This document shows, one piece after another, positions 38,666 through 61,354 of a stretch of DNA of 64,000 nucleotides. Below the pieces are notes generated by a model. The model had not been told where the DNA came from, searched no databases, and was given only the letters and a program-made list of their open reading frames with translations. A program made the translations under genes and the position numbers. Numbering within the stretch: the stretch's first letter is position 1; each line of letters opens with the position of its first letter. The stretch is from NCBI RefSeq assembly GCF_005222205.1, contig NZ_CP032350.1, forward strand, positions 124,001-188,000, written 5' to 3'. The DNA is from Azospirillum brasilense (GTDB lineage: Bacteria > Pseudomonadota > Alphaproteobacteria > Azospirillales > Azospirillaceae).

Positions 38666-38678
38666 GGAAGACGGTCCT

Positions 38679-39962: not shown

Positions 39963-42900
39963 CTACAGGGTGATGAAGGCGATGTAGGGCTCGCTGCCGG
40001 CCATGCCGGTGGTGACGGTCATGGCGCCCACGGCCTTGCCGGTGAAGGTCATGCTGGCGTCGATGGTGCCGTTGCCGTCGATGTCGCAGCGGACGGTGGC
40101 GCCCTTGTAGCCTTCGGCGCCGCCCATCTCCTCCCAGGTCAGCCGGGACTGGCCGGGCACGAAGCCCCAGAGGGTCGCCCACTCGCCGCGTTCCAGATCG
40201 ACGATGGTGGACCAAGTGACCTCGCCCCCGCGCCCATCCACGAAGAAGGTGTCGTGGCCCGGCCCGCCGATCAGCCAGTTGGAGCCGGAGCCGCCGTCCA
40301 GCACGTCGTCACCGGCCCCGCCCGACGCGGCGTCGTCGCCGCCCATCAGGTTGATGAAGTCGTTGCCGTCCGACCCGCCGACCACCTCGTTCTCGGTGGT
40401 TCCCAGGAAGCTCCATTGCAGGGTGGCGACCGGCCCCTCGTAGGCGTAGGCCACCACCGTCGTCTGCACACCGTCCACGATCCGGCTGAAAGGCACGGAG
40501 GGCCGCGCCGGAGCCGGGTCGGGGAGGGGCGCCGAGACCGACGGGGCGGCCGGCGACGGCGTTGGAGAGGGGGCGGGCGGGGCGGCGGGGGTGCTGTTGT
40601 CGGGCTGGGGCACCGGCACCGGCACCGGCACCGGGGCGGGCGGCTCGTTGGCCTGGGGATCGGAAGGGGGCAGGGGGGTGGTCCCGCCGCCGTCCTGCGG
40701 GGGCGCCGAGCCGCCGCCGGAGACGATGCCCATCAGCGTCCAGGCGAGATCCTGGAGACCGGCCGTCAGGGCCGGGGACAGCGGCAACAGGCTGTAATCG
40801 TGGTTGTAGGCGTCGGCGAACAGCGGGTCGCCGGTCCGGTCGTTCGCCCCATAGGCGCCGACCTGATGCAGGAAGTTGGCGTCGATGGCGTTCTGTCCCG
40901 CCGACAGGATCGTCACGTAGCCGCCGAGCGGCACCGCCCCCGACACGAGGTTGCCGGTGACCGTGTTGTTCGCCGGGATGCCGGCCGCTCCGGCCAGGGG
41001 CACCCACTCGATGCGGATGAAGCTCTCGCCGTTGGCGCCGAGCACGCCGATGTTGTTGGTCACGGTGTTGTCGTGGCCGCCATGGATCATGACGGCGGCC
41101 CAGGCGGTGTCGCGCAGGAAATTGCCCTGAACGGTCACGCCGCTGGTCAGGTCATCCAGATAGATGCCGTAGCCCTTGTAGTCGCGCAGCCACTGGCCGG
41201 TGCTGGTGGTGGCGATGCCGCCGGTGTGCTCGACCCGGTTGCCTTCGATCCGCGTGCCGGTGTTCAGGTTCGACCGCCCGAGCAGTTCGATGCCGCCGGA
41301 ATCCGCCGTCTCCAGCCCCGTGTTGCGGACGCGGTTGTAAAGGATGGCGTTGTTCAGGCTGATCGTCGCGGTGTCCCAGTTCTTGACCGAGATGCCATAG
41401 CGCGAGCTGTGGTCGATGTCGTTGTGGGAGATCACCGTGTCGCTGATCCCCGACGCCATGATGCCGCCGGCGTATTTGCGCACCTCGCCGATGTGTTGGA
41501 TGCGGTTGCCGGTGACGGTGTTGCCGATCGACTGGCCGGTCAGTGCGATGCCGTTGATGCCCAGATGGTCCAGGTAATTGCCGCTGACCAGATTGCGGTC
41601 CGATCCCTGGGTCAGCCGGATGCCGGTGCCGACATTCACGAAGCCGTTGCCGGCGATGGTGTTGACGTCGCCGTTGACGACGTCCAGAGCGTTGCCGTCC
41701 GTCGTCGTGTTGGTGAAGGTCAGCCCCTGGACCGTCACCCCGTTGGCGCCGTTCAGCCGCAGCAGCGTGCCGAGCCGGGCGACCTCCACCCCGGTCCCGG
41801 TGAAGTCCTCCCCCGCCTTGATGACCAGCCGCCCGTCCGAGGCGCGGTAGGCGAACTCCCCGACCTGATCGACGTGGGCGCTGTTGCCCAGCAGCTTGAA
41901 GGTCGAGCCGTCGCGCATGGTGAAGGGCGCGTCGGCGGTGAAGGTCAGGGTGCGCGTCACCGTGTCGATGCCGGCGACGGTCAGGATCGCGTCCTGGAGC
42001 CGCTCGGTGTCGAAGACCTGGACCCGGCTGCCCGGCACCAGATCGGCGGTGGTGACGTCGCCCGCCCGGTAGCGCAGCGCGTTCTTGCTGGCGCCATAGG
42101 CGCTCGCGTCGGCGACGAACCAGCCGGTGGTCGGGTCCTGCGGGTCGTAGGCGCCCTTGGAGGCCAGCCGGTAGCGCACGCCGTCGACGGTGACGTCCAG
42201 CCCCGGCGCCGCGGACAGGGGCGCCGACCAGACGCCGTTGCCCTCATAGGTGAAGCCGGTGACCCGCTCGCCGCCGCTGAGGACCGCCTGCTCGCCCGGA
42301 TAGCCGAGGATGCGGACGCCGCTGTCCGACGCGCCGAGGCTGAGCGTGCCCGTCAGATTGTAGGAGCCCTCGCGGACGTAGGTGGTCTTGACGGTGCCGG
42401 CGCGCATGGCCGCCTGCGCCCGCTCCAGGCTGGCGAAGGGGCCGTCGGTGCCCTCGGCGTTCGGCGCGGCCAGCCGCCCGGACCAGGCGTCGTTGCCGTT
42501 CTTCGCCACGTAGAAGGCGTCGCCCTGCGGAGCCGCGGCGTCCGACGCGCTGCCCTGGAACACGGGGGCGGCGACCGCCAGGGTGACGGAGCCGTCGTTG
42601 GACGGCGCCGGGGGGGCCACGGTCTTGCCGTTCACCGTCACGGCGCCGAGCGCCAGAGCGCCGGCCGGTGTCCCGTCCACCGGCAGGATCCGCACCGTGT
42701 GGGCGATGGACGGGTCCAGGGTGACGCCGAAGGTGAAGCGCTCGGCGGTGCCGGACGCGGCCTCCGCCTCCCCAACCAGCGTGCCGTCCACCAGGACCTT
42801 GAAGCGCACCGGCCCGGTGGCGGACGCGCCGCGCGCCGCCTCGACGGTGATGGGGATGGGCCGGGTGATGACCTCCTCCGGCTTGGGGGGCGGGCGGACC

Positions 42901-43313
42901 AGAGGGCCGCCGAACATCTCCTCGCCCAGACCGAAGGACAGCAGTCCGCCCCAATAGAGCCCGACCTGGCCGGGAACCACGTCCTTCCCGTCCACCGCAC
43001 CCTTGTCGTAGGTGGCCCGCGCGTCGGTGGATTTGACCTCCTGCCCGTCGACGAGGATGGAGCCGACGAAGAGGTTGCGGTCCACCCCGTTCACCACCCC
43101 GTCGTTGTCGTACCAGATCGAAATCCGGTGGGCCTGATCGGGATCGAGCGTGGCGGTGAAGCGGTAGGGGGTGCTGGAGGTGGCGGCGACCCACGCCTCG
43201 CCGATCATCACGCCGTCGACCAGCAGCCGGAAATGCGGCGCTTGGCCGGCGGACACGCCCCAGGCGTTCACGACGATCGGGATGTCGATGGTCCGTTGCG
43301 GGGACGTGGACAT
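39963..43313 (-). CDS. secreted parallel beta-helix protein with carbohydrate-binding-like domains and C-terminal RTX cassette
   Basis: This protein has 1,116 residues from ATG 43313. The N-terminus holds two related beta-sandwich repeats; the first has ISIWYDNDGVVNGVDRNLFVGSILVDGQEV, resembling Ca-dependent CBM36/60 modules (DRNL-V motif). From about residue 270, FYVAKNGNDAWSGRLAAPN and DGPFASLERAQAAMR open a right-handed beta-helix running to about 860, with many NTVTGNRI/NTVTNNIG coils typical of polysaccharide lyases or epimerases. A Pro-rich linker precedes a ~175-residue C-terminal cassette nearly identical to those of the RTX proteins at 16588 and 19874. There is no Sec signal, so type I export is likely. 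Substrate and activity are unknown. Confidence 0.88.
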   Translation of the reverse strand: MSTSPQRTIDIPIVVNAWGVSAGQAPHFRLLVDGVMIGEAWVAATSSTPYRFTATLDPDQAHRISIWYDNDGVVNGVDRNLFVGSILVDGQEVKSTDARATYDKGAVDGKDVVPGQVGLYWGGLLSFGLGEEMFGGPLVRPPPKPEEVITRPIPITVEAARGASATGPVRFKVLVDGTLVGEAEAASGTAERFTFGVTLDPSIAHTVRILPVDGTPAGALALGAVTVNGKTVAPPAPSNDGSVTLAVAAPVFQGSASDAAAPQGDAFYVAKNGNDAWSGRLAAPNAEGTDGPFASLERAQAAMRAGTVKTTYVREGSYNLTGTLSLGASDSGVRILGYPGEQAVLSGGERVTGFTYEGNGVWSAPLSAAPGLDVTVDGVRYRLASKGAYDPQDPTTGWFVADASAYGASKNALRYRAGDVTTADLVPGSRVQVFDTERLQDAILTVAGIDTVTRTLTFTADAPFTMRDGSTFKLLGNSAHVDQVGEFAYRASDGRLVIKAGEDFTGTGVEVARLGTLLRLNGANGVTVQGLTFTNTTTDGNALDVVNGDVNTIAGNGFVNVGTGIRLTQGSDRNLVSGNYLDHLGINGIALTGQSIGNTVTGNRIQHIGEVRKYAGGIMASGISDTVISHNDIDHSSRYGISVKNWDTATISLNNAILYNRVRNTGLETADSGGIELLGRSNLNTGTRIEGNRVEHTGGIATTSTGQWLRDYKGYGIYLDDLTSGVTVQGNFLRDTAWAAVMIHGGHDNTVTNNIGVLGANGESFIRIEWVPLAGAAGIPANNTVTGNLVSGAVPLGGYVTILSAGQNAIDANFLHQVGAYGANDRTGDPLFADAYNHDYSLLPLSPALTAGLQDLAWTLMGIVSGGGSAPPQDGGGTTPLPPSDPQANEPPAPVPVPVPVPQPDNSTPAAPPAPSPTPSPAAPSVSAPLPDPAPARPSVPFSRIVDGVQTTVVAYAYEGPVATLQWSFLGTTENEVVGGSDGNDFINLMGGDDAASGGAGDDVLDGGSGSNWLIGGPGHDTFFVDGRGGEVTWSTIVDLERGEWATLWGFVPGQSRLTWEEMGGAEGYKGATVRCDIDGNGTIDASMTFTGKAVGAMTVTTGMAGSEPYIAFITL

Positions 43314-43537
43314 GCGGGATCCTGGAGCCTGCGGGCGGGGAAACCGCCCGTCCCGAGGGTTGCGGAATGCTCCCTCGCGCTCCAAAACTGGCATACCACT
43401 ATCGATTGGGTGTGTGACATTGGTCCCAGAATGGCCACAGCCGGGACACTGGTCACAGCCCATGCGGGAAGGCTTGCCGGGGCTCGTGGAGCGGCGGTAG
43501 ATAGCGGTGCCACTCCCGCCTCCTGCACCGAGTCCCC

Positions 43538-45931
43538 ATGACCCTGCCGCCGACCTTCGACGCGGATGCCCTCGCCCGCTATGCGGCGGCGGACGTCATT
43601 TTCCTGGCCCAGGACGGCTTCCGACAGCCCTCCGCGCGGGTGCGCTGCTACAACTTCGCCAAGGCGCTGCGCCAGCAGGGGCTGCGGGCGGAGGTGCTGT
43701 CCTTCTTCGACCATCTGGGCGCCGCCGACCAGGCCGGCGCCCTTTCCACCATCCCCGAGGAGGAGAAGATCCGCCTGAACCTGGAGGCCCACCGGGTGCT
43801 GGCGAGCAACCCGCGGGCGGTCCTCTATGTGCAGAAGGTGGGCTACCACACGCTGGCCGCGGCCCTGGCGGCGGAGCGCGGCGGCAACCGGATCGTGCTC
43901 GACTACGACGACTACGAGTTGGACATGCAGCCCTTCCGCCGGCTGGAGCCCTGGTTCCCCAGCCTGCGCCCCGACCAGCTCTTCCACACGGTGGCCAACC
44001 GGGCCGGGGCCTGCGTGGCGGCCAGCCACCGGCTGGAAACGCTGTTGGCTCCGCTGAACCCGAACACGCACCTGATCCACACGGTGGCCGATCAGGACCT
44101 GTTCACCGCGGACGGGCGGGACGCGCCGCGCCGCCGCTTCGGGAACCGGGTCAACATCCTCTATTCCGGCGACTTCTGGGGCGACATCCCCATGAAGGAC
44201 GTGCTGTTCGCGGTGGACGCCTTCGCGCTGGTCCCCCGCGCCGTGCGCGACCGCGCCTGTTTCCACATCATCGGCTTCGGGCGGGCCTGGGAAGAGTTGA
44301 AGCGGCGCCTGAGAGAGCACTTCCCGGATCTGCCCAACCTCGAACTGCACGAGTTCATTCCGCCCGCCGAGATCCCCGCCGTGCTGCGGGAGATGGACAT
44401 CGGCGTGCTGCCCTATTCGGCCAACGAGTTCAACGTGGCCAAGAGCCCGACCAAGATGTTCGAGTTCCTGCTGGCCAAGGTGGCGGTCTGCGCCACGCCG
44501 GTGGGCGAGGTGACGCACTGCCTGGAAAACGGCGTGTCCGGACTGCTGGCCGAAGGAATGGAGGGCTACTCCGCCGCGCTCACCCGGCTGATCGGCGACG
44601 ACACCTTCCGCCGGGGCGTCGCCGAGGCCGCCCATCGGGTGGCGATGGAGCGTTTCTCCCTCCAGGGCATCGCCCCCCGGCTGGCCGCCGTCGTCCGCGG
44701 CCTGCTGGAACCGCAGGAGCGGGCGGAGGCCCCGCCCGTGACGACGCTGGAGGATTTCCTGACGGTTCGCCTCGCCCGGCCGGTCCCGCCGGCCCCGCGC
44801 GAGGTGCATCTGATGCGCCGCGACCTGGAAGCCCTGCTGGCCACCGAGGAGCTGGAGGCCGCCGACCCGCGCCGCTGGAGCGGGCCGCTGGTCGCCGCCC
44901 TCGACTGGCCCGGCCTGACCAGCGTGGAGCGGGTGGCGCCGGACCGCGTGGCCGCCCTGAAGGCCGCCGCGGCCCGCCATCGCAACGCCGCCCGGCTGCG
45001 CCCGGAGATCCTCCTGCCGGTGCGGGAACGCCCCCCCGGCCCCCCGGCGCTCAGCAAGCTCGCCGCGGCGGAGGATTGGGACGATCCGTCCTGGCGGCCC
45101 TGGGCGGTGCGGGTGCGGACCAACGTCTCGACCTTCCAGGCCCCCTACATCGACGACGCCGACGCGGAGCGCCGCCGCGACGAGGACGCCCGCAACAACA
45201 TCGACAATTTCTTCAAGCGCAGCCGCGGCACCTGGGAGCGCGCGCAGTTCCTCTACGGCCTCGACCGGCTGGGCCTGCTGGAGCGGGGACCCCGCGCCCT
45301 GGTGCTGAGCGCCGAGGTGGACGGCTTCTACCTCATGCTGACCGAGCTGGCGCGGTGCGTCGGGGTGGTCGATGTCGGGCCGGCGGCGGCGGCCCACGCG
45401 GAGCGGGTGGAGCGCGGCGACCGCGACCCCTGGCTCGCCAAGCCGCGCCGCTTCCATCGCGACCGCATCGTGATCCACCATGGCGCGCCGGGGGCGGATC
45501 TGTTCGCCGACGCGCTGTGGGACATCGCTGTCCTCCCCCAGAACACGCTGCCGCGCTTGGTGGCGGAGGGAAAGGCGGCGGCGCTTCTGACCTGGATCGA
45601 CCGGCGTCTGGCCCCGGGCGGGGTTCTGGCCTTTTCGGCGGAGATCCGGCTGAACGGGCGTCCGGGCGTGCCGGGGCTCACCCCGCGTCAGGCCGAGGGC
45701 CTGGGAGACGCCTTGTCAGACATCGGACTGGAACTGACAGGGGCGGTGGACCTGTCGCTCAGCGACGCCACGCTCGACCGGTTCGTGACGACCGGCGCGC
45801 CGGGTTCCGGGAACCCGAACTTCGCCGCCCGCACCGGCGAGGCCCTGCACATCACCGCCGTCTGGTTCGTCCGCAAGCGGGCCGATACCCCGGACGGCGG
45901 GTGGGAGAGGCTGGCCGGGTTCCTGGCCTGA
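43538..45931 (+). CDS. GT4-type glycosyltransferase fused to a degenerate methyltransferase-like domain (paralogue A)
   Basis: This protein has 797 residues. A GT-B domain (about 15-400) has VIFLAQDGFRQPSARVRCYNFAKALRQQG, IVLDYDDYELD, FHIIGFGRAWEELKRRL, MDIGVLPYSANEFNVAKSPTKMFEFLLAKVAVCATPVGE. After a spacer, residues ~505-797 form a domain starting KLAAAEDWDDPSW, with YFKRSRGTWERxHxLYGLDRLGLL-type motifs and a conserved SLSDATLDR near the end. It is about full-length similar to 50064-52460, and its last third is shared with 52677-55301. The C-domain resembles glycan-cluster methyltransferases but lacks the GxGxG SAM loop (LVLSAEVDGFYLML). Convergent with the radical SAM gene. Confidence 0.86.
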   Translation: MTLPPTFDADALARYAAADVIFLAQDGFRQPSARVRCYNFAKALRQQGLRAEVLSFFDHLGAADQAGALSTIPEEEKIRLNLEAHRVLASNPRAVLYVQKVGYHTLAAALAAERGGNRIVLDYDDYELDMQPFRRLEPWFPSLRPDQLFHTVANRAGACVAASHRLETLLAPLNPNTHLIHTVADQDLFTADGRDAPRRRFGNRVNILYSGDFWGDIPMKDVLFAVDAFALVPRAVRDRACFHIIGFGRAWEELKRRLREHFPDLPNLELHEFIPPAEIPAVLREMDIGVLPYSANEFNVAKSPTKMFEFLLAKVAVCATPVGEVTHCLENGVSGLLAEGMEGYSAALTRLIGDDTFRRGVAEAAHRVAMERFSLQGIAPRLAAVVRGLLEPQERAEAPPVTTLEDFLTVRLARPVPPAPREVHLMRRDLEALLATEELEAADPRRWSGPLVAALDWPGLTSVERVAPDRVAALKAAAARHRNAARLRPEILLPVRERPPGPPALSKLAAAEDWDDPSWRPWAVRVRTNVSTFQAPYIDDADAERRRDEDARNNIDNFFKRSRGTWERAQFLYGLDRLGLLERGPRALVLSAEVDGFYLMLTELARCVGVVDVGPAAAAHAERVERGDRDPWLAKPRRFHRDRIVIHHGAPGADLFADALWDIAVLPQNTLPRLVAEGKAAALLTWIDRRLAPGGVLAFSAEIRLNGRPGVPGLTPRQAEGLGDALSDIGLELTGAVDLSLSDATLDRFVTTGAPGSGNPNFAARTGEALHITAVWFVRKRADTPDGGWERLAGFLA

Positions 45932-45965
45932 CCGCCCTCTTCGTCCGGTTTCACTCCGCCGGACC

Positions 45966-47699
45966 TTACTCCGCCAACACAGGCGCGTCGTCGTAGAGAT
46001 CGCGCAGGATGGCGGCGGAAATTCCCAGCCGCGCCGCGTCCTGCCGCATCGCCGTGCGGGAGGAGACGATGCGTGGCGTGAGGAAGACCGGCCCCGCGAA
46101 GCCGGGCAGAGCGGCGGGGGCCTCCACCGGGGCGCCGTCCAGCGACTGGCCGGCCAGCTTGCCGTCGAACAGCCGCACGCGGCCTTCCGTGATGAGCGGC
46201 TTCAGCGCCGGCACCTGCCCCAGCGTCTCGAAGAAGTCGGTGCCGATGCCCCACAGGGCCACGGGGCCGTCGGCCGCGGCTTCGGTCACCGCAGCGCCCA
46301 GCGCGCGCCACTGGCGGATGAGGTAGTCGGAGCTGCTCTTGGCCTTGTCGGCCCCGATGGCGAGGTCGCCTTCGGACAAACGGCGCATCTTCTCGCCGCC
46401 GTCCGGCACGTAGAGATACTGCTCGTCGAGCGCCGCCCCGGCGTAGCGGTCGAGATGGCCCTTCTCCCTCAGGGTGGACATGGGCGTGCCTTCGATCTCG
46501 CCGCAGCCCGTCTCCTGGAAGGTGTCGAGCGGCAGGCTGGCGATGTAGGCCTTGGTGTCCTGCATCTGCTCGCGCGTTTCGCCCGGCAGGCCGTAGGTGA
46601 AGGTGCCGTGCACCGTCATGCCCAGCCGCTTGATCTCATGCACCGCGGCGCGCGCGGTCTCCAGGTTCAGGCGCTTGTTGACGATGTTGTCGTTGACCCA
46701 CTGGTTGCCGCTCTCGAAGCCCAGCTTGACGCCGAAGCAGCCGCTGTCGCGCATGGCCTGCCACGTCTCCAGCTTGATGGTGTCGGCGCGGCACATGGCC
46801 GACCAGGGCAGGCCGATGCGGGTCATCACCTCGCAGATCCCCAGAACGTGCTTGTCGCCGAGGTTGAAGGTGTCGTCGTCGAAGTAGATGGACCGGTAGC
46901 CGTAGCGCCCAACCAGATCGCGCAGCATCCCTTCCACATAGTCCGGCTCGTAGAAGCGGACCGAGCGCTTGCCGGTGCCGTCCGGGTCGTTGCCGGTCAT
47001 GGTCGCCGGCCAGACGCAGAAGATGCACTTGTAGGGGCAGCCGCGGCTGGCCCAGACCTGGAGCTGCGGCGCCTTCTGCCCGGCGGGGTTCACGTCCCAA
47101 TAGCGGTGGGCAATGACGTCGTCGAAGTAGGGGTAAGGGGCGGCGTTCATCTCCGCCACCGTCAGCAGTTCGTGGGGCAGCACACCCGACGCACCGTTCA
47201 GCACGCGCACGCTGCCCTTCTCGTACTCGCCCTGGATGACGGCGTGGATGGGGAACTGCTCCATCACCGCCTCGCCCTTGGCGGACATGGCGCCGGTCAG
47301 CACGATCTTGGTGTCGGGCAGGATCTCCTTGACGCGTCGCACGATGGTCTGGTCGTGATCCCAGCAGGGCGTCGCCGTCTCGATGAAGATGTACTCGTAC
47401 CGCTCCTCCCGCAGGTGCTGGAAATAGCTGTCGTAGGACTCGCGCAGCGCGATGGAGTCGCGGAACGTCACCTTGGCGCCCGTCGCCTTGGCGGCGTAGG
47501 TCGCGGCGTAGCCCATGAAGAAGGGATAGGGCAGATATTCCCCGAACACGAAGTTGCCGGGCGAGGAGTGGGCCTGGTTGGTGTGCGGCCACCGCGAACC
47601 GGCGCGCACGCCGCTGAACCACGCCGAGGCCGGGGCGTCGTCGCCGGCGAACTCGAACCGCTTGATCCACCAGGGCGGATTGCTGAACAGGACCTTCAT
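45966..47699 (-). CDS. radical SAM protein with B12-binding-like N-terminal domain
   Basis: This 577-residue protein has an N-terminal Rossmann-like half (residues 1-180, GYAATYAAKATGAKVTFRDS ... IHAVIQGEYEKG) like cobalamin-binding regions. The radical SAM core has RGCPYKCIFC with the cluster cysteines at 221, 225 and 228, then YFDDDTFNLG and VKLGFESGN, typical of the B12-type (BchE/methylthiotransferase-like) branch. A ~130-residue C-terminal part has a separate WGIGTDFFE Rossmann-like motif. It sits at the end of a minus-strand operon with two sugar-nucleotide epimerases, so a radical step on a sugar or lipid carrier is plausible. The reaction is unknown. Confidence 0.87.
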   Translation of the reverse strand: MKVLFSNPPWWIKRFEFAGDDAPASAWFSGVRAGSRWPHTNQAHSSPGNFVFGEYLPYPFFMGYAATYAAKATGAKVTFRDSIALRESYDSYFQHLREERYEYIFIETATPCWDHDQTIVRRVKEILPDTKIVLTGAMSAKGEAVMEQFPIHAVIQGEYEKGSVRVLNGASGVLPHELLTVAEMNAAPYPYFDDVIAHRYWDVNPAGQKAPQLQVWASRGCPYKCIFCVWPATMTGNDPDGTGKRSVRFYEPDYVEGMLRDLVGRYGYRSIYFDDDTFNLGDKHVLGICEVMTRIGLPWSAMCRADTIKLETWQAMRDSGCFGVKLGFESGNQWVNDNIVNKRLNLETARAAVHEIKRLGMTVHGTFTYGLPGETREQMQDTKAYIASLPLDTFQETGCGEIEGTPMSTLREKGHLDRYAGAALDEQYLYVPDGGEKMRRLSEGDLAIGADKAKSSSDYLIRQWRALGAAVTEAAADGPVALWGIGTDFFETLGQVPALKPLITEGRVRLFDGKLAGQSLDGAPVEAPAALPGFAGPVFLTPRIVSSRTAMRQDAARLGISAAILRDLYDDAPVLAE

Positions 47700-47762
47700 C
47701 GCGCTTCCTTCCACCGCTCCCTGCGGATCGTCATGCTCGGACCGGCCATCACGGGCCGGCAA

Positions 47763-48833
47763 TCACTGGCGGGCGAACCGGTCGGCCATCTCGGCGTGCA
47801 TCTCGGCCAGAATGCCGTCGATGTCGCGGGTCAGCGACCAGTCCGGATAATGCTCCTGGAAACGCCGGATGTCGCTGATCCACCAGATGTGGTCGCCGAT
47901 CCGGTTGGTCTCGTCGTAGCTCCAGGCCATCGGGCGGCCGGTGAGTTGCTCGGCCTTCGTGATGGCCTCCGCCATCGAGCAGTTGGAGTGACGCCCGCCG
48001 CCGATGTTGTAGACCTCGGCGCTGCGCGGCTTCTGGAAGACGTGCCAGAAGGCGTTCACCAGATCGAAGGAATGGATGTTGTCGCGCACCTGCTTGCCCT
48101 TGTAGCCGAACACCCGGTAAGGCGTGCCGGTGACCGCGCATTTCACCAGATAGGCCAGGAAGCCGTGGAGCTGGGCGCCGGAATGGCCCGGCCCGGTCAG
48201 GCAGCCGCCGCGGAAGCAGGCGGTCTTCATGCCGAAATAGCGCCCGTATTCCTGCACCATCACGTCCGCGGCCACCTTGGAGGCGCCGAACAGGCTGTGC
48301 TTGGTCTGGTCGATGCTCATCGCCTCCGGGATGCCGTGGGCGGCCCAGGGGTGGGACGGGTCCAGCTCCCAGCGGGTCTCCAGCTCCACCAGCGGCAGGG
48401 CGTTGGGCGTGTCGCCGTAGACCTTGTTGGTCGAAGTGAAGATGAAGGGGGCGTCCGGGCAATGGCGCCGCGCGGCCTCCAGCAGGTTCAGCGTGCCGTT
48501 GGCGTTGACCGAGAAGTCGGTGAAGGGCTCCCGCGCCGCCCAATCGTGCGAGGGCTGGGCGGCCGTGTGGATCACCAGCGCGATGGACGAGCCGTACCGC
48601 GCGAACAGCGCGTCGATGGCGTCCTGGTCGCGGATGTCCGCGGTGACATGGCTGTAGGACGGGTGCCGCTTCTCCAGCCGCTCCCGGCTCCAGGCCGTGC
48701 TCGCCTCGTCGCCGAAGAAGTAGCGGCGCATGTCGTTGTCCACGCCGACGACGTCGAACCCCTTCTCCGCGAAGAAGCCGACGGCTTCGGCGCCGATCAG
48801 GCCGGCGGACCCAGTGACGATGACGACGGACAT
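47763..48833 (-). CDS. NAD-dependent epimerase, CDP-paratose 2-epimerase-like
   Basis: This 356-residue extended SDR has NAD motif [13 protein letters not shown] and the [32 protein letters not shown] block, which is close to RfbE (CDP-paratose/CDP-tyvelose epimerase). [36 protein letters not shown] (catalytic Y/K region altered to F-G-A-S-K) and NIGGG are also present. The usual catalytic tyrosine of YxxxK reads as phenylalanine here, so activity may differ. It lies between the radical SAM gene and a second epimerase. Confidence 0.85.
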
Positions 48834-48883
48834 GAGGGAGTTCTCCTCGGGAAAAGTGAAGCGGGGGGACCGCCAAGCGTCGT

Positions 48884-49963
48884 CTATAACAGAATCGGTT
48901 CCAGGATGCGCCGGTTGGCGCCCAGCCAGTCGATCAGCTCGTCCATGATGGCGCCGGGCGTCCGTTGCGGGCGCCAGCCGGTCGCCTGCGTGACGTCCGC
49001 GTTGTCGGTCACGTACCAGGGGATGTCGGCGGCGCGGGTTTCCGGGCTGGCGGCAATGGGGATGGTCCGGCCCGTGCGCTCCGCGCAGAGCCTAGTCAAC
49101 TCGGCCAGCGACACGCTCACCTCCGGCCCGCCGCCCACGTTGAAGATCCGGCCCTTGAACCGGTCCATGCCGGCCACCTGCACCCTCAGCAGGTCGTACA
49201 GGTCGGCGACGTGCAGCATGTCGCGCACCTGAAGCCCCTCGCCGCCGAAGCCGCTGTAGGACAGAGTCCCGCCATACAGATGACGCGCCGCCCACAGCAC
49301 GACGACGCCTTGGTCGACCTTGCCCATCTGCCAGGGTCCGGTCAGCACGCCGCACCGGTTGATCACGGCGCGCAGGCCGTACATGGCGCCGTATTCCTCG
49401 ATCATCAGCTCCGACGCCAGCTTGGTGGCGCCGTAGATGGAGCGGCTGCCCGGCATCGGAAAGCCCGTCGCGATGCCCGCCGCCGACCAGCCCGGCCCGG
49501 CGGCGCCGCCCGGCAGCACCAGCCGCGTGGCGCCGCGCTCCAGCGGCAGCCGGCGCAGCGGGTCGATGGGATAGACGCGGCTGGTGGACAGGAACACCAT
49601 GTCAGCGCCGTGGCGCCGCGCCGCCTCCAGGCAGTTCACCGTGCCGACGAGGTTGGTGTTGATGACGTAGGCCGGGCTGCCGTCATAGCCGGCATGCACC
49701 GACGGTTCGGCGGAGCATTCCAGCAGCAGGTCGAAGGCGCCGAGTTCCTCCAGATCCTCCGGGTTGCGCACGTCGCCATGGGCGAAGCGCACGCCGCCCG
49801 CGCGCAGGCGGTCCAGGGCCAGTTCGGAACCGCGCCGGCGCAGGTTGTCGAAGGCGACGACCTCGGCTTCGGGGCGGTCGCGCTTGAACAGAAGGGCAAG
49901 GTTGGAGCCGACGAATCCCGCCCCGCCCGTGACGACGATCCTGCAGGGGCGTGTGGCGTTCAT
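48884..49963 (-). CDS. NAD-dependent epimerase/dehydratase, paratose-epimerase-like
   Basis: This 359-residue extended SDR has [90 protein letters not shown] and [19 protein letters not shown] with an intact YxxxK. This layout is again near CDP-paratose 2-epimerase. It is 50 bp upstream of the other epimerase, and the two probably act in sequence on one nucleotide sugar. The CDP-sugar assignment is inference. Confidence 0.88.
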
Positions 49964-50063
49964 GACGGGGTTTCGTCCAAATGTCTTGCGGCGGAATGGG
50001 CCGATGATCGAAGGGGGGCGGTTAACAAAGCCTCAAATTGCGCGTGGCGCCAGGGCTTTCGCA

Positions 50064-52460
50064 TCAAGCCCTCAGCGCCGCGGCCAGCCGCGTCCAGCCG
50101 CCGGGCGCCGTGGGCCCCGTCTTGCGGCAGAACCAGACCACGGGCGCGTGGAGGGTGTCGCCGGTCAGCGCCACCAGATGCGGGTTTTCCGCGCCGGGCG
50201 CTCCGGTCCGCACCAGCCGGTCGAGAGTCGCGTCGCTCAACGATGAATCGAAGCCGCCGAGCAGTTCGAAGCCGGTGTGCCGTTGGAACAGGGTCGCGAG
50301 GCCCTCGCCGGCCAGGTCGGGAGCAAGGCCGGCCACATCCGTGCCGCCGTCGAGCCGCAGCCGGCCCATCACGGCCAGGATGCCGCCGTCCGCCAACCGC
50401 TCGTCCGCCCAGGCGAGCAGACCATCGGCGTTGCGATCGAAGACTGCGTCCTGGAGCAGAAGGACCGCGTTCCAGGGGGTGTCCCCGGATCGTTGCCCGG
50501 CGGCTTCGGGCAGGCCGTGGTGGATGGCGATCCGGTCACGGCGGAACAGGCGCGGCTTCAGCAGCCACGTGTCCAATTCGCCCGCCGCCGCGCGCCCGGC
50601 CCGCGTCGCGGCTCCGGGGCCGATGTCCAGCACGTCCACATGGGAGACCCATTCCGTCAGGGCCAGATAGAAGCCGTCGATGGCGGTGCTGATCGCCAGC
50701 ATCCGGGCCGTTCCGTCGAGCAGCCCCAGCCGGTCGAGCCCGTACAGGAGGTGCACGCGCTCCCACGTCCCCCGGCTGCGCTTGAAGTAGCTGTAGACGT
50801 GGTTGAGCCGTTCGTCGTCCCGCAGCGCCTCGAAGTCGGGGATGTTGTCGGCCGCGCTGACGTGAAAGGTGCCGCAGTTCGTCTTGAAGCGCTGCGCCCA
50901 GGCGAACCAGGCCGGGTCTTCCCAATCCTCCGACGCGGCCAGCTTGGCGAGGCGTGGCGGTCCATCCGGCCGTTCCATCGCGGTAATGCGCAGGCGCGGG
51001 CGCAGGCGGCGGGCGTTGCGGTGGCGTAGCGCCGCGTCCCGGAGGCGGGCCAGAGTCTCTTCGGACACGCCTTCGCTCCGCGCGGCGCCCGGCCAGTCCA
51101 GCAGCGCCAGCAGCGGGGCGGACCAGCGGCGCGGATCGACGGCGGCGAGGTCGGGAGCCGCCGCCGCGGCCTTCAGGTCGCCGCGGGCAAGCGCCACCTC
51201 GCGCGAGGGCATCGCCAGCCGGCGGCCCAGGGCCTGCCGCATGAAGGCTTCGAGCGGCATCCCCGCCGGGCCGGCCGATGCGTCCGGCGCCATGGCCTGC
51301 CGGATGATGGCGGTCAGCCGGTCGCCGACGGCGTCCAGCGTGTAGTCGGCGAGCGCCCGTTCATAGGCGGCCTCGGCCACGGCCCGGCGCCTGTCGTCGT
51401 CGTCGATCAGCGTCGCCAGACGGTCGGAGAAGTCCTCCAGCCCCTCGCCGAGAAGGATGGACGCGCCGTTCTCCAGGCAATGCACCGCCTCGCCGACCGG
51501 CGTGGCGCAGATCGCCACCTTGGTCAGCATGTACTCGAACATCTTGGTCGGGCTTTTCGAGGCGTTGAACGCGTTGTCGGCGTAGGGCAGGACGCCGATG
51601 TCCATCTCGTTGAGCACCGCGCCGAACGCGCCCGGCGGGATGTGCTCGTGGAAGACCAGGTTGTCCATCTCCGGGTGGCGCTGCCGCAGGCGCCGTTTCA
51701 ACTCCTCCCAGGCCCGCCCGAAGCCGATGATGTGGAAGCGGGCCTTGCGGCGGATGCGGCTCGGGACCAGGGCGAAGGCATCGACGCCGAAGACGATGTC
51801 CCGCATGGGGATGTCGCCCCACACGTCGCCGCACCACAGGATGTTCACGGAGTCGCCGAAACGCCGGCGACCGTCGCCGCGGCGGTCCGGATTGAAGACG
51901 TCCCGGTCCGCCACCGTGTGGACAAGGTGCGTGTTCGGGTTGAAGGGGGCGAGCAGGTCGAGGATGCGCCGGCTGGACGCCACGCAGGCCTGGGCCCGTT
52001 CGGCGAAGCGGGCAAGGAATTCCTCGGGCTTCAGCGACGGTAGCCAGGGCTCGATCCGGCGGAAGGGCTGGCTGCCCAGATCATAGTCGTCGTAGTCGAG
52101 CACGATCCGGTTGCCGTTGCAGCCTGCCGCCATCAGACAGGCGACCGCGTGGTAGCCGGCCTTCTGCACGTAGAGCAGCGCGCGCGGGTTGCGCGATAGC
52201 ACCTCGAAGGCGGCCAGAGTCAGGCGGAGCTTCTCCTCCTCCGGCAGATTGGCGGCAAACCCCCCTTGCTCGGTCGCGCCGAGATGGTCGAAGAAGGAGA
52301 GCACCTCCGCGCGCAGTCCGCGCTGGTTGACCAGCTTTGCGAAGCTGTAGGCGCGCACACGGGCGGGTGCCAGTTTGAACCCGTCCTGCGCGACGAAGAT
52401 GACGTCGGCCTGGGCATAGCGGGCCATGTCGTTCGGGCCCAGCGGTGAAGGGATCGCCAT
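50064..52460 (-). CDS. GT4-type glycosyltransferase fused to a degenerate methyltransferase-like domain (paralogue B)
   Basis: This 798-residue paralogue of 43538-45931 aligns end to end: VIFVAQDGFKLAPARVRAYSFAKLVNQRGLRAEVLSFFDHLGA, NRIVLDYDDYDLG, FHIIGFGRAWEELKRRLRQ, KSPTKMFEYML. The C-domain is also shared (KLAASEDWEDPAW, YSYFKRSRGTWERVHLLYGLDRLGLL, SSLSDATLDR), again with a degraded SAM loop (LAISTAIDGFYLAL). It is divergent from the third family member at 52677. Probably the head of the minus-strand operon ending at 45966. Confidence 0.87.
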   Translation of the reverse strand: MAIPSPLGPNDMARYAQADVIFVAQDGFKLAPARVRAYSFAKLVNQRGLRAEVLSFFDHLGATEQGGFAANLPEEEKLRLTLAAFEVLSRNPRALLYVQKAGYHAVACLMAAGCNGNRIVLDYDDYDLGSQPFRRIEPWLPSLKPEEFLARFAERAQACVASSRRILDLLAPFNPNTHLVHTVADRDVFNPDRRGDGRRRFGDSVNILWCGDVWGDIPMRDIVFGVDAFALVPSRIRRKARFHIIGFGRAWEELKRRLRQRHPEMDNLVFHEHIPPGAFGAVLNEMDIGVLPYADNAFNASKSPTKMFEYMLTKVAICATPVGEAVHCLENGASILLGEGLEDFSDRLATLIDDDDRRRAVAEAAYERALADYTLDAVGDRLTAIIRQAMAPDASAGPAGMPLEAFMRQALGRRLAMPSREVALARGDLKAAAAAPDLAAVDPRRWSAPLLALLDWPGAARSEGVSEETLARLRDAALRHRNARRLRPRLRITAMERPDGPPRLAKLAASEDWEDPAWFAWAQRFKTNCGTFHVSAADNIPDFEALRDDERLNHVYSYFKRSRGTWERVHLLYGLDRLGLLDGTARMLAISTAIDGFYLALTEWVSHVDVLDIGPGAATRAGRAAAGELDTWLLKPRLFRRDRIAIHHGLPEAAGQRSGDTPWNAVLLLQDAVFDRNADGLLAWADERLADGGILAVMGRLRLDGGTDVAGLAPDLAGEGLATLFQRHTGFELLGGFDSSLSDATLDRLVRTGAPGAENPHLVALTGDTLHAPVVWFCRKTGPTAPGGWTRLAAALRA

Positions 52461-52676
52461 TGATGATCCGGGAAGGACGCGGAGGAAATCGCGCCACCCT
52501 CTGATTGCTTCTGCTGAAGGTCAAGTCGAAAATATTGCGGGCGCCCGTCTCTCGCGTCTCTCCGAAGATGGGTTGCGCAGTAGGGAATTTTGTTTCAGAA
52601 CCCGGTGGAGGTGGGGGCGGCTGCGGTCTTTTCCACACAGAACCGCCTTCTTGTCCTGTTGCTCCGGTGGTGTTTC

Positions 52677-55301
52677 ATGATTTCCGTCATTGTCTACGGC
52701 AGGAACGACTCGCACGGCTATAATCTGCACAAACGCGCCGCTCTTAGCCTCAACAGCATCGCAGAGGTTTTGACCGCTCCCGGCGATGAGATCGTCTTCG
52801 TCGATTACAACACGCCTGACGATCTGCCAACCTTCGTCGAAGCGATTCTCGATACGTTGACCGGGGGCTGCCGGGAGATTCTGCGTGTCGTTCGCGTTCG
52901 TCCGGCGCTGCATGCCCTTTTCGCCGACCGGACCAGCTATGCGACCATAGAATCGGTCGCCCGGAACGTGGGCTTGCGCCGCTCCAATCCGCGCAACCGC
53001 TGGATATTGTCCACGAATACCGACATGGTTTTCCTCCGCCGGGATGGGGGCCGTTCCCTGTCAGAGCTGGTGGACGGGTTGCCCGACGGCTTCTATCAGG
53101 TGCCGCGTTTCGAAGTGCCGGAATCACTGTGGGAATCCTTGGACCGCCGCGATCCCCGCTTGGCGATCGAACGATTTCGCTGGTGGGGTGCGCGTTTCCA
53201 TCTGAACGAGCTGGTGCACACCGATCCGATCACGCGCTTTGACGGCATCGGAGACTTCCAGCTTGCCCTCCGGTCGGACCTGTTCGCGATCCATGGCTTC
53301 AACGAGGACATGCTGGCGGGGTGGAACGTCGACATGAACCTGTGCCATCGGCTGCACCGCCGGTATGGGCGTGTCGATTCCCTGTCGGGCCAAGTCCTGG
53401 CCTATCATTGCGGCCACACCCGTCTCCCCACGGCGATCCATCGCGACGACACGGTCATGAACGATCCGGTGCGCTACATCGACCGTGTCGTTCGGGATGA
53501 CCTGCCCGAACAGGCGGAGCGTTGGGGGCTGGTGCGTCATGCGCTGGAGGAATTCCGCGCGGACGCCCCCCCTTCCGGCCGTCTGCCCGCCGCCCTGGAA
53601 AAGAGCCTGCCGGCGCAGGACGATCCCGGACGTGAGGCATGGAACGACTTCACCAACTTCAGCGCCCGTTTCCGTTTGCGGCTCGACCCGGACCACGCGC
53701 TTCCCTATGTCGCGGATCTCCTGGCGACGGCGCCGCCGGATGCGGTGCTGGCCTATGTCGGCAGCCACCGTGGGATGTTCGAACGCACGCTGCGGGCTTG
53801 GCGGGCGCTTGGCCATGGCGAGGCGGTCCTGGTGCCCGAAAGTGGGGTGATTCCGGATGAATTCCCCGGCGTGGAAGCCGTCGACGCGCTGGAGTTCGAC
53901 CGCCGGGCTTCCCTTTTCCTGTTCGAATTTGCCTTGGACGACGATTGGCTTGCGCAGGATCCCTGCCCCTGCTTCGAGGGGATTCCGGAGGAAGGGCTGA
54001 GGCAACTCGGCCTGATCTACGGCCTCTTCATTCAGCAGACGGAACGGGAGCGCCAACGCCTCGCGGCGGGCAAGGGCACGCCGAGGCGTTTCATCGGCGT
54101 GCCTGCGGTCAACACGTTCTTCGGCATGCGCTTCGGAGAGCGGGTCATGTTCACGCACACGATGTTCAGCACGCGCGTCCGGCATGGGCAGGTCCGCCGC
54201 ACAGGGCTCGCCGTCCGATCCGATGGGGCGGCGGACGAGGCAGGGCGGCGGCTTGGAGCGGCCCTAGGCCGAGCCTTTCCCATCGACCGGCAGGAGGTCG
54301 AGATCGCGCGCGGCGATCTGGATCGCATCCTTGCCGCCGAAGGGCCGGACGCTGTCGAACCGCACCGCTGCACGGCGGTCGCTCAGGCGTTGCTGGACGT
54401 TGTCGGGGCGGCGGTGCCTGAGCCGGTGCGGCAGGAGCGCAGACGTTGGATCGAACGGAACCGGCCGAGTCGTGCCCTGCGGGAGCGTATCGATCCTCTC
54501 ATCGTGTCATCCAAGCCTCCTGCCCCGCCGCTGCTCAACAAGCTCTGCGCGGCGGAGGATTGGGAGGATACTCATTGGCGGGCCGTCGCCGAGGAGTTCA
54601 CGCGTGACGGCTTGCCTTTCCGGGCATCCACCTACGCCTATTTCAAGCGCAGCCGCGGGGTGTGGGAACGCACCCACATGCTGTACGGGTTGGGGCGGCT
54701 TGGCGTGATCGGGCATGATGCCCGCTGTGCGGTGATCAGCCGGGCGCCGGACGGGCTGGGCCACTTCCTGTCGCTCCGGACCGCCGGAGTGGACATCATC
54801 GACCTTCAGGGGCATGGGACCGGCTGGCTGGCGCGGCGGCGGATGCGCCGGATGGACCGGATGTCCATCCACCCCGATCCGGCCTCCCCGGCGCCGGACC
54901 GTTCATGGCCGGACCGTTCATGGAATGCCGTCTTGATTCCGCAGAACACCTTGCTAGGGGCCGGATTGCGGCAGGCCGACACCCTTCTGCGCAACACCGC
55001 CCGCAGACTGGCCGGAGGCGGAGTCATCACCTGCTCCGTGGAGACCGCTCTCGATAATCGGGGGCGGAGGGATTGTCCGGCTCCGGACCGGATCGCCGCA
55101 GTGATGGGCATCCTTGCGGACAGGAGCGGGCTGGTGCTCTGCGGGGGAGTGGACTGGAGCCTGAGCGACGCCACACTAGATCGGATCGCCGTGCGGGGAG
55201 AGGATTCGGAACGCCGGCCGCATCTGGTGACGCGCGACGATCACGGGCATTGCACCTGTTCGGTCTGGTTCCTGAGCAAGGGGGAACACCCTCAGCGCTG
55301 A
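52677..55301 (+). CDS. GT2-like glycosyltransferase fused to the same degenerate methyltransferase-like domain
   Basis: This protein has 874 residues from ATG 52677. The N-terminus is a GT-A-like domain (MISVIVYGRNDSHGYNLHKRAALSLNSI, EIVFVDYNTPDD, WILSTNTDMVFLRRDGGRS, FNEDMLAGWNVDMNLCHRL). A middle region of about 300 residues is unassigned. From about residue 620 the domain of the two neighbouring GT4 fusions appears: KLCAAEDWEDTHW, YFKRSRGVWERTHMLYGLGRLG, WSLSDATLDR. So one C-terminal domain is joined to two unrelated transferase folds. It overlaps the convergent GT2 gene by 10 bp at its 3' end. Confidence 0.86.
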   Translation: MISVIVYGRNDSHGYNLHKRAALSLNSIAEVLTAPGDEIVFVDYNTPDDLPTFVEAILDTLTGGCREILRVVRVRPALHALFADRTSYATIESVARNVGLRRSNPRNRWILSTNTDMVFLRRDGGRSLSELVDGLPDGFYQVPRFEVPESLWESLDRRDPRLAIERFRWWGARFHLNELVHTDPITRFDGIGDFQLALRSDLFAIHGFNEDMLAGWNVDMNLCHRLHRRYGRVDSLSGQVLAYHCGHTRLPTAIHRDDTVMNDPVRYIDRVVRDDLPEQAERWGLVRHALEEFRADAPPSGRLPAALEKSLPAQDDPGREAWNDFTNFSARFRLRLDPDHALPYVADLLATAPPDAVLAYVGSHRGMFERTLRAWRALGHGEAVLVPESGVIPDEFPGVEAVDALEFDRRASLFLFEFALDDDWLAQDPCPCFEGIPEEGLRQLGLIYGLFIQQTERERQRLAAGKGTPRRFIGVPAVNTFFGMRFGERVMFTHTMFSTRVRHGQVRRTGLAVRSDGAADEAGRRLGAALGRAFPIDRQEVEIARGDLDRILAAEGPDAVEPHRCTAVAQALLDVVGAAVPEPVRQERRRWIERNRPSRALRERIDPLIVSSKPPAPPLLNKLCAAEDWEDTHWRAVAEEFTRDGLPFRASTYAYFKRSRGVWERTHMLYGLGRLGVIGHDARCAVISRAPDGLGHFLSLRTAGVDIIDLQGHGTGWLARRRMRRMDRMSIHPDPASPAPDRSWPDRSWNAVLIPQNTLLGAGLRQADTLLRNTARRLAGGGVITCSVETALDNRGRRDCPAPDRIAAVMGILADRSGLVLCGGVDWSLSDATLDRIAVRGEDSERRPHLVTRDDHGHCTCSVWFLSKGEHPQR

Positions 55302-56191
55302 GCGAAGGGAAAGCGGTGCACACGTTTCCAGACGCCTAGGCTCTCAACGAACTGGACGACCGGTCCCGTGAAGCCATGGGCAGCCAGGCCACCCAGGTCC
55401 TTCGGCGACGACAAAAGCCGGTATTCAGCCCAGACCGCCGCCCGATGGGCGGCCATGGCGTCGGTAAAAGAGGCATCCAACTCCCTTATGTAACCATCGC
55501 CCGCACCGAGTTGGCGATCGTGGTGCCGGAACTGGCCGAGCACGCTGTTCACCACCGTCGGCGCCCCCCTCCCCGCGAACCGGCGCCACAGGTCGAAGTC
55601 GCCGGCGATCCGCAAACGGGTGTCCAGCCCCCCACAGGCATGCCACAATCGCCCGGTCCACAGGCTGCCTTCCTGCTGCAGGAAGGGCAGGTGGCGGTTG
55701 TCGTGGAGCCCGGCGGCAAGCGTCTTGGCCGGGAAGGCGAAGCAATCTTCGATGTGGACGAGGCTGCCACGGGCATTGAGCCGCGTGATCCGCCCGGTCA
55801 ACCACTCGATGTCGGGAAAGGCCGCCGTCACGTCGCAGGCGGTTTGCAGGGCTCCGGGTGCCAAGCGGTCGCTGGCGTTGATCCAACCCATCAGCGAATC
55901 ACCGTCCACGCCGAGCTGCGCGAAGCCCCGGTTCAGGGCATCGTACATGCCGTTGTCCATGCGCGAATCAACCGTCATCCGGATCCCACGGCACAGGATC
56001 GGGAAGTTGCCGTTCTCCAAACAGGCCTGCCAATGCTCCAGCCGCTCCAGCGTGCCATCGCGCGATCCACCGTCCTGGACATGGTAGACGATTTCGAAAT
56101 CGCCGCTCTGGCTGAGCACGCTTGCGACCGTATCGTCGATGAACGCCGCGCTGTCGAGGCAGGGGGTGACGATCTGGAAGCAGCGGGGCAT
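55292..56191 (-). CDS. GT2-family glycosyltransferase
   Basis: This protein has 299 residues from ATG 56191. FQIVTPCLDSAAFIDDTVASVLSQSGDFEIVYHVQDGGSRDGTLERLEHW is the classic GT2 opening, followed by MDNGMYDALNRGF and MGWINASDRLAPGALQ (donor-metal region). The family of 'stealth-like' GT2 proteins with DGGSRDGT is common in capsule and flagellin-glycan clusters. The longer frame to 56257 lacks a better start. It overlaps the preceding convergent gene by 10 bp. Confidence 0.88.
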   Translation of the reverse strand: MPRCFQIVTPCLDSAAFIDDTVASVLSQSGDFEIVYHVQDGGSRDGTLERLEHWQACLENGNFPILCRGIRMTVDSRMDNGMYDALNRGFAQLGVDGDSLMGWINASDRLAPGALQTACDVTAAFPDIEWLTGRITRLNARGSLVHIEDCFAFPAKTLAAGLHDNRHLPFLQQEGSLWTGRLWHACGGLDTRLRIAGDFDLWRRFAGRGAPTVVNSVLGQFRHHDRQLGAGDGYIRELDASFTDAMAAHRAAVWAEYRLLSSPKDLGGLAAHGFTGPVVQFVESLGVWKRVHRFPFAQR

Positions 56192-56305
56192 GGCTGATCT
56201 TCTATAAGCTTTTGTGTCGAAGCTTGTGCGAGCGCATGGTGCACGCCACTGCGACATGAGTACACTGATTCCGGCCAGTCGAGCCGATTAATTGGGAGAA
56301 CCACC

Positions 56306-57040
56306 TTGGATTTGCCGGACAGCGCCATCGACTCGTTCAAGAAAGCCATCTGGCGGGTCATCGAGGCCAACACGGAGGCTTTCGCACCGCATGTTCTCAG
56401 TCATGCGAATTCATTGCAGCGAATCCGTAATCGCGGCATTGATTGCAGGACGGTGATCGACGTGGGGGCGTCCGATGGCCGATGGTCGCAAATGGCGCGG
56501 AGCTTTTGGCCGGACGCGCATTATCATCTGGTCGAAGCGTTCGAGCATTGGAACGGCGCGCTCCAGGCGCTGACCGCAGACGATCCCCGAATGACTTTCA
56601 CCTTGGCGGCGGCCGGGGCGGAGGACGGCGAGACGCCGTTCACCAACTCCTTCGACGATCCGTTCGGTGGCACGGCCATGCCCGACGCGGGCGCGCCGCA
56701 ATGGACCGTCCGGCAGGTCTCCCTGGACCAAGAGGTGGAACGGCTTGGCTTTGAAGGGCCGTTCATGGTCAAGCTCGACACGCACGGTACGGAACGCGAA
56801 ATTCTGGCCGGTGCTCGCCGGGTCCTGGAAAGCTGCGAAGTGCTGGTGATCGAGATGTACAATTATGGGGAGGACAGCCGGCGTTTCCCCGCCATGTGCC
56901 AGCATGTGGAAAGTCTGGGATTCCACTGCATCGACATGGGGGAGCCGATGTTCCGCGATCATGACCGGGCGTTCTGGCAGGTGGATTTCTTCTTCGTACG
57001 TAAGGATCGTCCGGAAGCGGTTTATCCCCAGTTTCGTTGA
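56306..57040 (+). CDS. FkbM-family methyltransferase
   Basis: This 244-residue protein is read from TTG 56306 with GGGAGA eight bases upstream. TVIDVGASDGRWSQMARSFWPDAHYHLVEAFEHW is the SAM-binding motif I/II, followed by VRQVSLDQEVERLGFEGPFMVKLDTHGTEREILAGA, which is the FkbM signature (D-IDVEG-like KLDTHG). It would O-methylate a sugar or glycan. Divergent from the GT2 gene and convergent with the GT4 gene at 57086. Confidence 0.9.
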   Translation: MDLPDSAIDSFKKAIWRVIEANTEAFAPHVLSHANSLQRIRNRGIDCRTVIDVGASDGRWSQMARSFWPDAHYHLVEAFEHWNGALQALTADDPRMTFTLAAAGAEDGETPFTNSFDDPFGGTAMPDAGAPQWTVRQVSLDQEVERLGFEGPFMVKLDTHGTEREILAGARRVLESCEVLVIEMYNYGEDSRRFPAMCQHVESLGFHCIDMGEPMFRDHDRAFWQVDFFFVRKDRPEAVYPQFR

Positions 57041-57085
57041 GGCGGGATGCCGCCAAGCCAGCGGATGGCTGGGGCGGCAGTGTCT

Positions 57086-58279: not shown

Positions 58280-58299
58280 GATGATGCCCGATTTTGTCT

Positions 58300-59325: not shown

Positions 59326-59626
59326 GCCGCCCACTCCGATTCGCCCGGTGCGGTGACAACACAGTGTAGAGGTCCGTATATGGAGAGGCAATTGCTTTCA
59401 CCTATGAACTGTACGCCAACTCATGGTGGGAAAGAGCGCGTCAGAAGCAGCAATTCATCTTCTTTAACCTTTTTCGGCAACAATGGGCCAAATCGGCTTC
59501 ACGGGAATCGCCAGCCCGAGGAAGGACCGTATCCGACCACGACAGCCTGCCGGTACCTATGATCCTGACTGTTTTCCAACAGCCGAACTGCCGGCCTTCG
59601 CCTGGGAAGAGGCGGAGTTTCCTGTG

Positions 59627-61332: not shown

Positions 61333-61354
61333 AACCTGGAGCGGTGGAATACCG

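Follow-up and report, generated by a model that had tools for sequence, protein, structure and literature searches.

This analysis concerns a 64,000-nucleotide stretch of Azospirillum brasilense DNA (contig NZ_CP032350.1 of assembly GCF_005222205.1, positions 124,001 to 188,000), referred to here as the window, and in particular three of its genes, A, B, and C, whose products share a C-terminal unit that has the fold of class I methyltransferases without their glycine-rich S-adenosylmethionine (SAM) loop. An earlier note on this DNA had placed the genes at positions 43538, 50064, and 52677, and open reading frames are indeed found there. Gene A (43538..45931, forward strand; 797 residues) and gene B (50064..52460, reverse strand; 798 residues) each encode a glycosyltransferase family 4 (GT4) enzyme followed by the C-terminal pseudo-methyltransferase unit. 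Gene C (52677..55301, forward strand; 874 residues) encodes a GT-A-like N-domain, a middle Rossmann-like domain, a helical linker, and the pseudo-methyltransferase core. Its frame is also opened by an upstream TTG at 52590; the annotated Sp7 orthologue starts at a methionine aligned with 52677.

The GT4-type N-domains of A and B lie above the Pfam cut-offs, with PF13692 reaching 49.3 and 38.7 bits, respectively, against a cut-off of 27 (A, residues 206-376: PF13692, E = 8.1e-13, and PF13524, E = 7.1e-7; B: PF13524, E = 1.1e-13, and PF13692, E = 1.5e-9), and no above-chance Pfam or NCBIfam match extends into the C-terminal unit. NCBIfam added partial glycosyltransferase matches below cut-off and one chance-level match (E = 0.13) in the core of B. 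Over their full lengths (801 columns), A and B share 55% identity and therefore represent a single fusion type; judged by sequence, they are full-length paralogues that arose by duplication. What had been described as three fusions thus amounts to two types in the window, GT4, which is duplicated, and GT-A-like, and a third type occurs in another genus.

The GT2-like label given to C stands on motifs (NTDM and GFxExMxxGWxxDxNxxxR in the N-domain, residues 1-320, 52677..53636, forward strand), but Pfam and NCBIfam match no part of the protein. When the N-domain family was scanned against Pfam, PF00535 appeared at E = 0.14 in only one of nine members, and a distant relative of the domain matched Glyco_transf_49 at E = 6.8e-4, below the family cut-off. 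Profiles of the full C-type protein and of the C N-domain, like the distant relative, found no meaningful match among solved structures, and a neighboring GT2 gene gave no hhalign match to C. The predicted model of C has a predicted local distance difference test score (pLDDT) below 50 over residues 124-283, and its listed structural matches fall in the C-terminal core; strands and helices alternate in the modeled middle domain (residues 321-524; 53637..54248, forward strand). Together, the N-terminal and middle parts of C probably constitute an unnamed transferase family.

C shares with A and B only its last 375-420 residues or so, and over this region pairwise similarity is far above chance (34% identity with A, E = 1e-38; 37% with B, E = 5e-48), which bears out the claim of a common C-terminal domain. 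The shared unit consists of a linker, some 100 residues long and modeled entirely as helices, and a core that starts at the motif KLxAxEDW and comprises 291 residues in A, 293 in B, and 253 in C. The length first proposed, about 250-290 residues, fits the core (253-293), but the homology extends further, through the linker, to about 350-400 residues in total. The linker occupies residues 400-506 of A (44735..45055, forward strand; common to B and C, with helices in the model of its B homologue), 400-505 of B (50946..51263, reverse strand; model residues 1-106), and 525-621 of C (54249..54539, forward strand). The core follows at residues 507-797 of A (45056..45928, forward strand), assigned from the core alignment with its fold by homology to the B model, at residues 506-798 of B (50067..50945, reverse strand), assigned from the predicted structure and its structural matches, and at residues 622-874 of C (54540..55298, forward strand).

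Three motifs mark the core. The opening segment reads KLAAAEDWDD in A, KLAASEDWED in B, and KLCAAEDWED in C, and the KRSxGxWxR-type stretch reads FFKRSRGTWERAQFLYGLDRLG in A, YFKRSRGTWERVHLLYGLDRLG in B, and YFKRSRGVWERTHMLYGLGRLG in C. In the form originally given for this stretch, YFKRSRG-WER-H-LYGL, the Y and the H hold for B and C but not for A; in B, the YFKRSRGTWER segment (50757..50789, reverse strand) lies at the helix before strand beta-1. The third motif, SLSDATLDR, has, as claimed, the same letters in all three proteins (45755..45781 in A, forward strand; 50217..50243 in B, reverse strand; 55158..55184 in C, forward strand).

Searches for an already named domain returned none: against Pfam, NCBIfam, and PHROGs, the C-terminal unit matched no family at curated cut-offs and gave only chance-level matches (E at least 0.075). 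Across 15 core sequences, Pfam yielded two families (E = 0.078 and 0.12) with one member each, and PHROGs yielded one match to the core of A (E = 0.075) and none to those of B or C. A keyword search of the literature found, in the library covered and with the search words used, no description of the shared unit. The fold itself is clear from structure prediction, on which the earlier note had let its comparison with methyltransferases depend. The AlphaFold model of the B unit has a pLDDT of 93.2 and a predicted template modeling score (pTM) of 0.92, and all 50 listed structural matches are proteins of the class I methyltransferase fold. The unit shares the Rossmann-type fold of the solved SAM-methyltransferases 1vl5, YcgJ (1xxl), NodS (3ofk), and RebM (3bus), at 9-18% identity in structural alignments, but lacks their SAM loop.

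Kinship with class I methyltransferases, which had been suggested from the layout of the motifs, is supported by sequence homology to an intact standalone enzyme, the metagenomic protein P0051 (Methyltransf_11/25). The core aligns with it over 244 columns (hhalign, 96.9%, E = 1.4e-10); the alignment spans almost the full length and takes in both the C-terminal tail and the WE..Q..YGL..LG helix that precedes beta-1. P0051 is unfused and has its own intact VGVGAGHE loop (GxGxE) and an acidic TDLY after beta-2, whereas the unit in the fusions lacks the glycines. Both the fold and the methyltransferase origin of the unit are well supported.

At E<=1e-8, one of 82 family genomes had a match to P0051, over 107 query residues. 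The phages and viral contigs searched had none; plasmids gave 51 records (47 from Sinorhizobium), one of which covers more than 80% of the query at 28.8% identity. A close intact methyltransferase was also considered as a partner gene and rejected: Methyltransf_11 has 49 matches in the genome of the window, and comparison of the open reading frames of 30 loci with P0051 gave only two weak matches (E = 7e-5 and 2.6e-4). No P0051-like frame lies in the seven stretches that carry relatives of the C N-domain, and a fold search among viral models gave weak and mixed matches, several of them methyltransferases. The same genome encodes another protein, L087, that by eye combines both kinds of domain in one chain; its methyltransferase is N-terminal, retains an intact VGCGTG, and is not among the matches of the core profile.

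The absence of the SAM-binding glycine loop, noted at first for A, B, and C, extends to all 46 aligned proteins: the GxG of motif I is in register in 0/46, with a glycine at the first place in one row and at the second place in one row. In A, strand beta-1 and the loop in place of the glycine-rich one read RALVLSAEVDGFYL (45293..45334, forward strand); in B, beta-1 and the altered motif I loop read RMLAISTAIDGFYL (50664..50705, reverse strand). The loop has instead an aspartate after beta-1 that is present in every row (D196 in the numbering of the B model), followed by a glycine in 44/46 (G197). The acid at the end of beta-2 is aspartate in 38/46 proteins, Q271, after beta-4, is found in 44/46, and the glycines at the start of beta-5 are largely kept (G294 in 46/46, G293 in 38/46).

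Twenty-five positions are identical in all 46 proteins, among them the motifs KRSxGxWxR and DxTLDR. They comprise E22, A53, and R82 in the linker; K107, A110, E112, D113, W114, and W119 in the KLxAxEDWxxxxW segment; K161, R162, S163, G165, W167, and R169 in KRSxGxWxR; and D196, W233, G294, D339, D344, T346, L347, D348, R349, and P361 elsewhere in the core. On the predicted structure, KRSxGxWxR forms the beginning of the helix that precedes beta-1, D196 sits in the loop that follows this strand, and residues D339-R349 are found at and just past a short strand (333-339) taken as beta-6. In class I enzymes, this edge of the fold binds SAM and substrate. Argued from fold topology, the invariant residues would thus cluster at the presumed active-site edge.

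Selection was estimated by the Nei-Gojobori method from a single pairwise comparison of each gene with its Sp7 orthologue. The ratio of nonsynonymous to synonymous substitution rates (omega) in the core was 0.296 for A, 0.245 for B, and 0.288 for C, compared with 0.076, 0.148, and 0.099 in the respective N-domains, i.e., 1.7 to 3.9 times that of the attached N-domain; the linkers gave 0.235 (A), 0.255 (B), and 0.217 (C), and the middle domain of C 0.075. Likewise, the identity to C of the GT-A-like proteins from genomes G054 and G001 drops from 48% and 51%, respectively, in the N-domain to 21% and 29% in the core. By these estimates the unit is under purifying selection, weaker than that on the transferase domains.

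Within a sample of 82 Azospirillaceae genomes, the unit occurs in 13, in 32 copies, with 1 to 4 per genome; the count leaves out two fragments at a contig end of the window's own genome. A single copy is present in three of the 13 (G023, G028, and G054, assemblies of about 70 or more contigs). Apart from the window's own genome, no copy was found in a class-level sample of 385 genomes, which holds four further family genomes, or in an overlapping phylum-level sample of 398, with at most six candidates scored per genome; six class-level matches at E = 2e-5 to 8e-5 all fall in common methyltransferase motifs. All six plasmid records with the unit are from Azospirillum, and their matches are annotated as 'glycosyltransferase' or 'hypothetical protein'. 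Two peptide patterns run against a genome collection found seven loci; Azospirillum records account for five of them, and the other two come from a single 'Roseomonas genomospecies 6' record (NZ_QOKW01000039.1), whose name may be wrong. Among 7,999 candidates scored, the only standalone unit was P0050, on a 1,606-base contig, which is probably a cut gene. A further apparent copy of C, in broken pieces at G000:C6:37-1824, was rejected as an overlap of contig ends and left uncounted. Contig C6 begins with 8,000 bases that align to window positions 53402-61517 (98.4% identity, 103 gap openings in 8,117 columns); the alignment marks this start as an error-rich overlap between the two ends of the contig, left untrimmed, that yields a false broken C copy, and the real plasmid size is probably about 177 kb.

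The N-domain of C was also found in eight other genomes of the 385 (at most five candidates per genome scored), and none of the seven stretches that were read contains the unit. In four of them, proteins of 502-525 residues cover the N-domain and the middle domain of C (profile E = 1.5e-162 to 5.8e-188) and end ahead of the linker, without the pseudo-methyltransferase unit. Two others hold open frames of 1,215 and 1,209 residues with the N-domain from residue 298 and a different C-terminal part, and one holds a 417-residue distant relative of the N-domain. Because these relatives lack it, the unit looks like a module added in the Azospirillaceae line. The 502-525-residue proteins (L126-L129) form an unnamed GT-A-like family of their own in two alphaproteobacterial families outside that of the window, and the two that were scanned had no above-chance Pfam or NCBIfam match.

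The joining of the domain to unrelated N-domains, claimed for the GT4 and GT2-like proteins, holds for the GT4 and GT-A-like types and extends to a third: a protein of genus g2 (G001) has its core preceded by an N-domain matching neither of the other types. A tree built from 50 cores needs two changes, the minimum, to account for the three N-domain types; the GT4 type forms one side of a weakly supported branch (64/50), and four distant rows are long-branched and of unsure placement. Two g2 proteins (L039:4870-7914 and L039:16533-19871), one of which has the third N-domain type, continue past the core for about 275-280 residues with repeats of SGHVLYGPYxxLxxGxY, perhaps beta-sandwich sugar-binding domains.

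The fusion genes belong to a conserved cassette in which a beta-helix/CBM60 protein is followed by A, a radical SAM gene, two epimerase genes, and B (and C); this order recurs in Sp7, and the cassette is kept in full or part in other Azospirillum loci. Between A and B, on the reverse strand, lie the radical SAM gene (45966..47705; PF04055, E = 1.8e-14), with a weak B12-binding match (PF02310, E = 0.0017, below cut-off), and two NAD-dependent epimerase/dehydratase genes (47763..49963; PF01370, E = 1e-39 and 1.9e-34). At the position that B has in the window, past the epimerases, strain K and G038 have two C-type genes. The locus fits surface-glycan synthesis because further glycosyltransferases, an FkbM methyltransferase, an epimerase, and a cytidylyltransferase-type gene surround the fusions; Gfo/Idh and DegT genes are presumably also among these neighbors.

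Several further features of the locus deserve mention. The large beta-helix protein at 39963-43463, which adjoins gene A in related loci, has CBM60, NosD/beta-helix, and RTX matches, and is matched by large beta-helix open reading frames at 16588-19464 and 19775-22171. Two adjoining genes at 37793-38707 and 38679-39491, whose Sp7 orthologues are annotated as molybdenum storage protein subunit alpha and uridine kinase, stand beside the glycan genes, a position kept in Sp7, K, and A. tabaci. In the strain K stretch (L104), three of the four annotated radical SAM genes directly adjoin a fusion gene, and a functional link between radical SAM and fusion genes is possible.

We read the shared unit, with a probability of about 0.5, as a pseudoenzyme module that derives from a methyltransferase and now binds the glycan acceptor. 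A class I SAM-methyltransferase, of a kind believed to act on sugars in glycan clusters, would have been joined to a glycosyltransferase in an Azospirillaceae ancestor and would have lost its glycine-rich SAM loop while retaining the fold and the cleft at the ancestral active-site edge. Later fusions may have attached the unit to an unrelated GT4 enzyme, from which A and B would descend, and to the third N-domain in another genus. Today, the N-terminal domain would transfer the sugar, and the C-terminal unit would most likely bind the acceptor, a growing surface-glycan chain or its lipid carrier, and so position or select it. More tentatively, the methyltransferase fold may have become a SAM-free glycan-recognition module before the fusion types diverged, one movable between unrelated glycosyltransferases (GT4, GT-A-like, and the third type); such a module would be the pseudoenzyme equivalent of a carbohydrate-binding module, working on the growing chain within the cell.

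Several observations weigh against this proposal. The closest intact methyltransferase is a single metagenomic protein, and nine of the 25 invariant positions lie away from the presumed active-site edge, three in the linker and six in the KLxAxEDWxxxxW segment. Exceptions appear once the set is widened to 15 cores: two have KRSCG, ANHTLDR occurs in a single one of the 11 closer ones, and the four distant cores differ at several positions, with GxG absent in all four and the post-beta-1 aspartate present in two. For the linker, the four distant proteins show only weak matches (E = 0.019 and 0.11) or none, so linker and core do not form a fixed unit in every member. With at most six candidates scored per genome, distant members may have escaped the scans beyond the family. 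Moreover, the core may be less constrained because it is just a structural part, and the conserved Asp-Gly loop might accommodate a different nucleotide-like cofactor or bind SAM in an atypical manner. Six of the 46 rows, those of C and its five close kin, show a GxG immediately after the aspartate, five residues past the register of motif I. Together with the full fold, the beta-2 aspartate in most proteins, the retained beta-5 glycines, and purifying selection, this GxG could indicate a working methyltransferase that holds SAM by a non-canonical loop with the invariant aspartate, so that A, B, and C would be bifunctional glycosyl-/methyltransferases. We regard this as unlikely, although the least so of the alternatives, since the in-register GxG is gone from all 46 proteins and missing also in the four most distant members, and the beta-2 acid is missing in eight.

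Next in likelihood, but still improbable, is that the unit is only a scaffold holding A, B, and C in homo- or hetero-oligomers with no glycan bound. Its presence on three proteins of one cluster, the relaxed constraint, and the helical linker that accompanies the core in the closer members, with its three invariant residues, would suit such a role; strict conservation in the core, however, falls mostly at the presumed ligand edge, and in the genomes with a single copy, fragmented as those assemblies are, a partner carrying the unit is not always present. The many invariant charged residues at that edge could instead serve a different, SAM-free reaction in the old cleft, and SpnF and polyamine synthases among the structural matches illustrate that the fold does other chemistry. 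A repurposed catalyst of this kind seems a little less likely again, given the raised omega of the core relative to the attached N-domains and its divergence from C in G054 and G001 next to well-kept N-domains. That the unit is the functionless debris of a decaying fused methyltransferase, as the lost motif I might suggest, is very improbable: the loss is common to all three fusion types, yet the motifs are invariant and core omega stays at 0.245-0.296 in all three genes.

The fold, and pseudoenzyme domains fused to enzymes as a kind, are already known; what is new is the pairing found here and the sharing of one unit between unrelated transferases. If the acceptor-binding proposal is true, the unit would offer a clear example from bacteria of a methyltransferase fold retained for recognition. 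Azospirillum is a plant-associated genus used as a crop inoculant. The presence of one accessory domain on transferases of one probable surface-glycan locus suggests a common acceptor, and such an acceptor would help to order the steps of the Azospirillum pathway.
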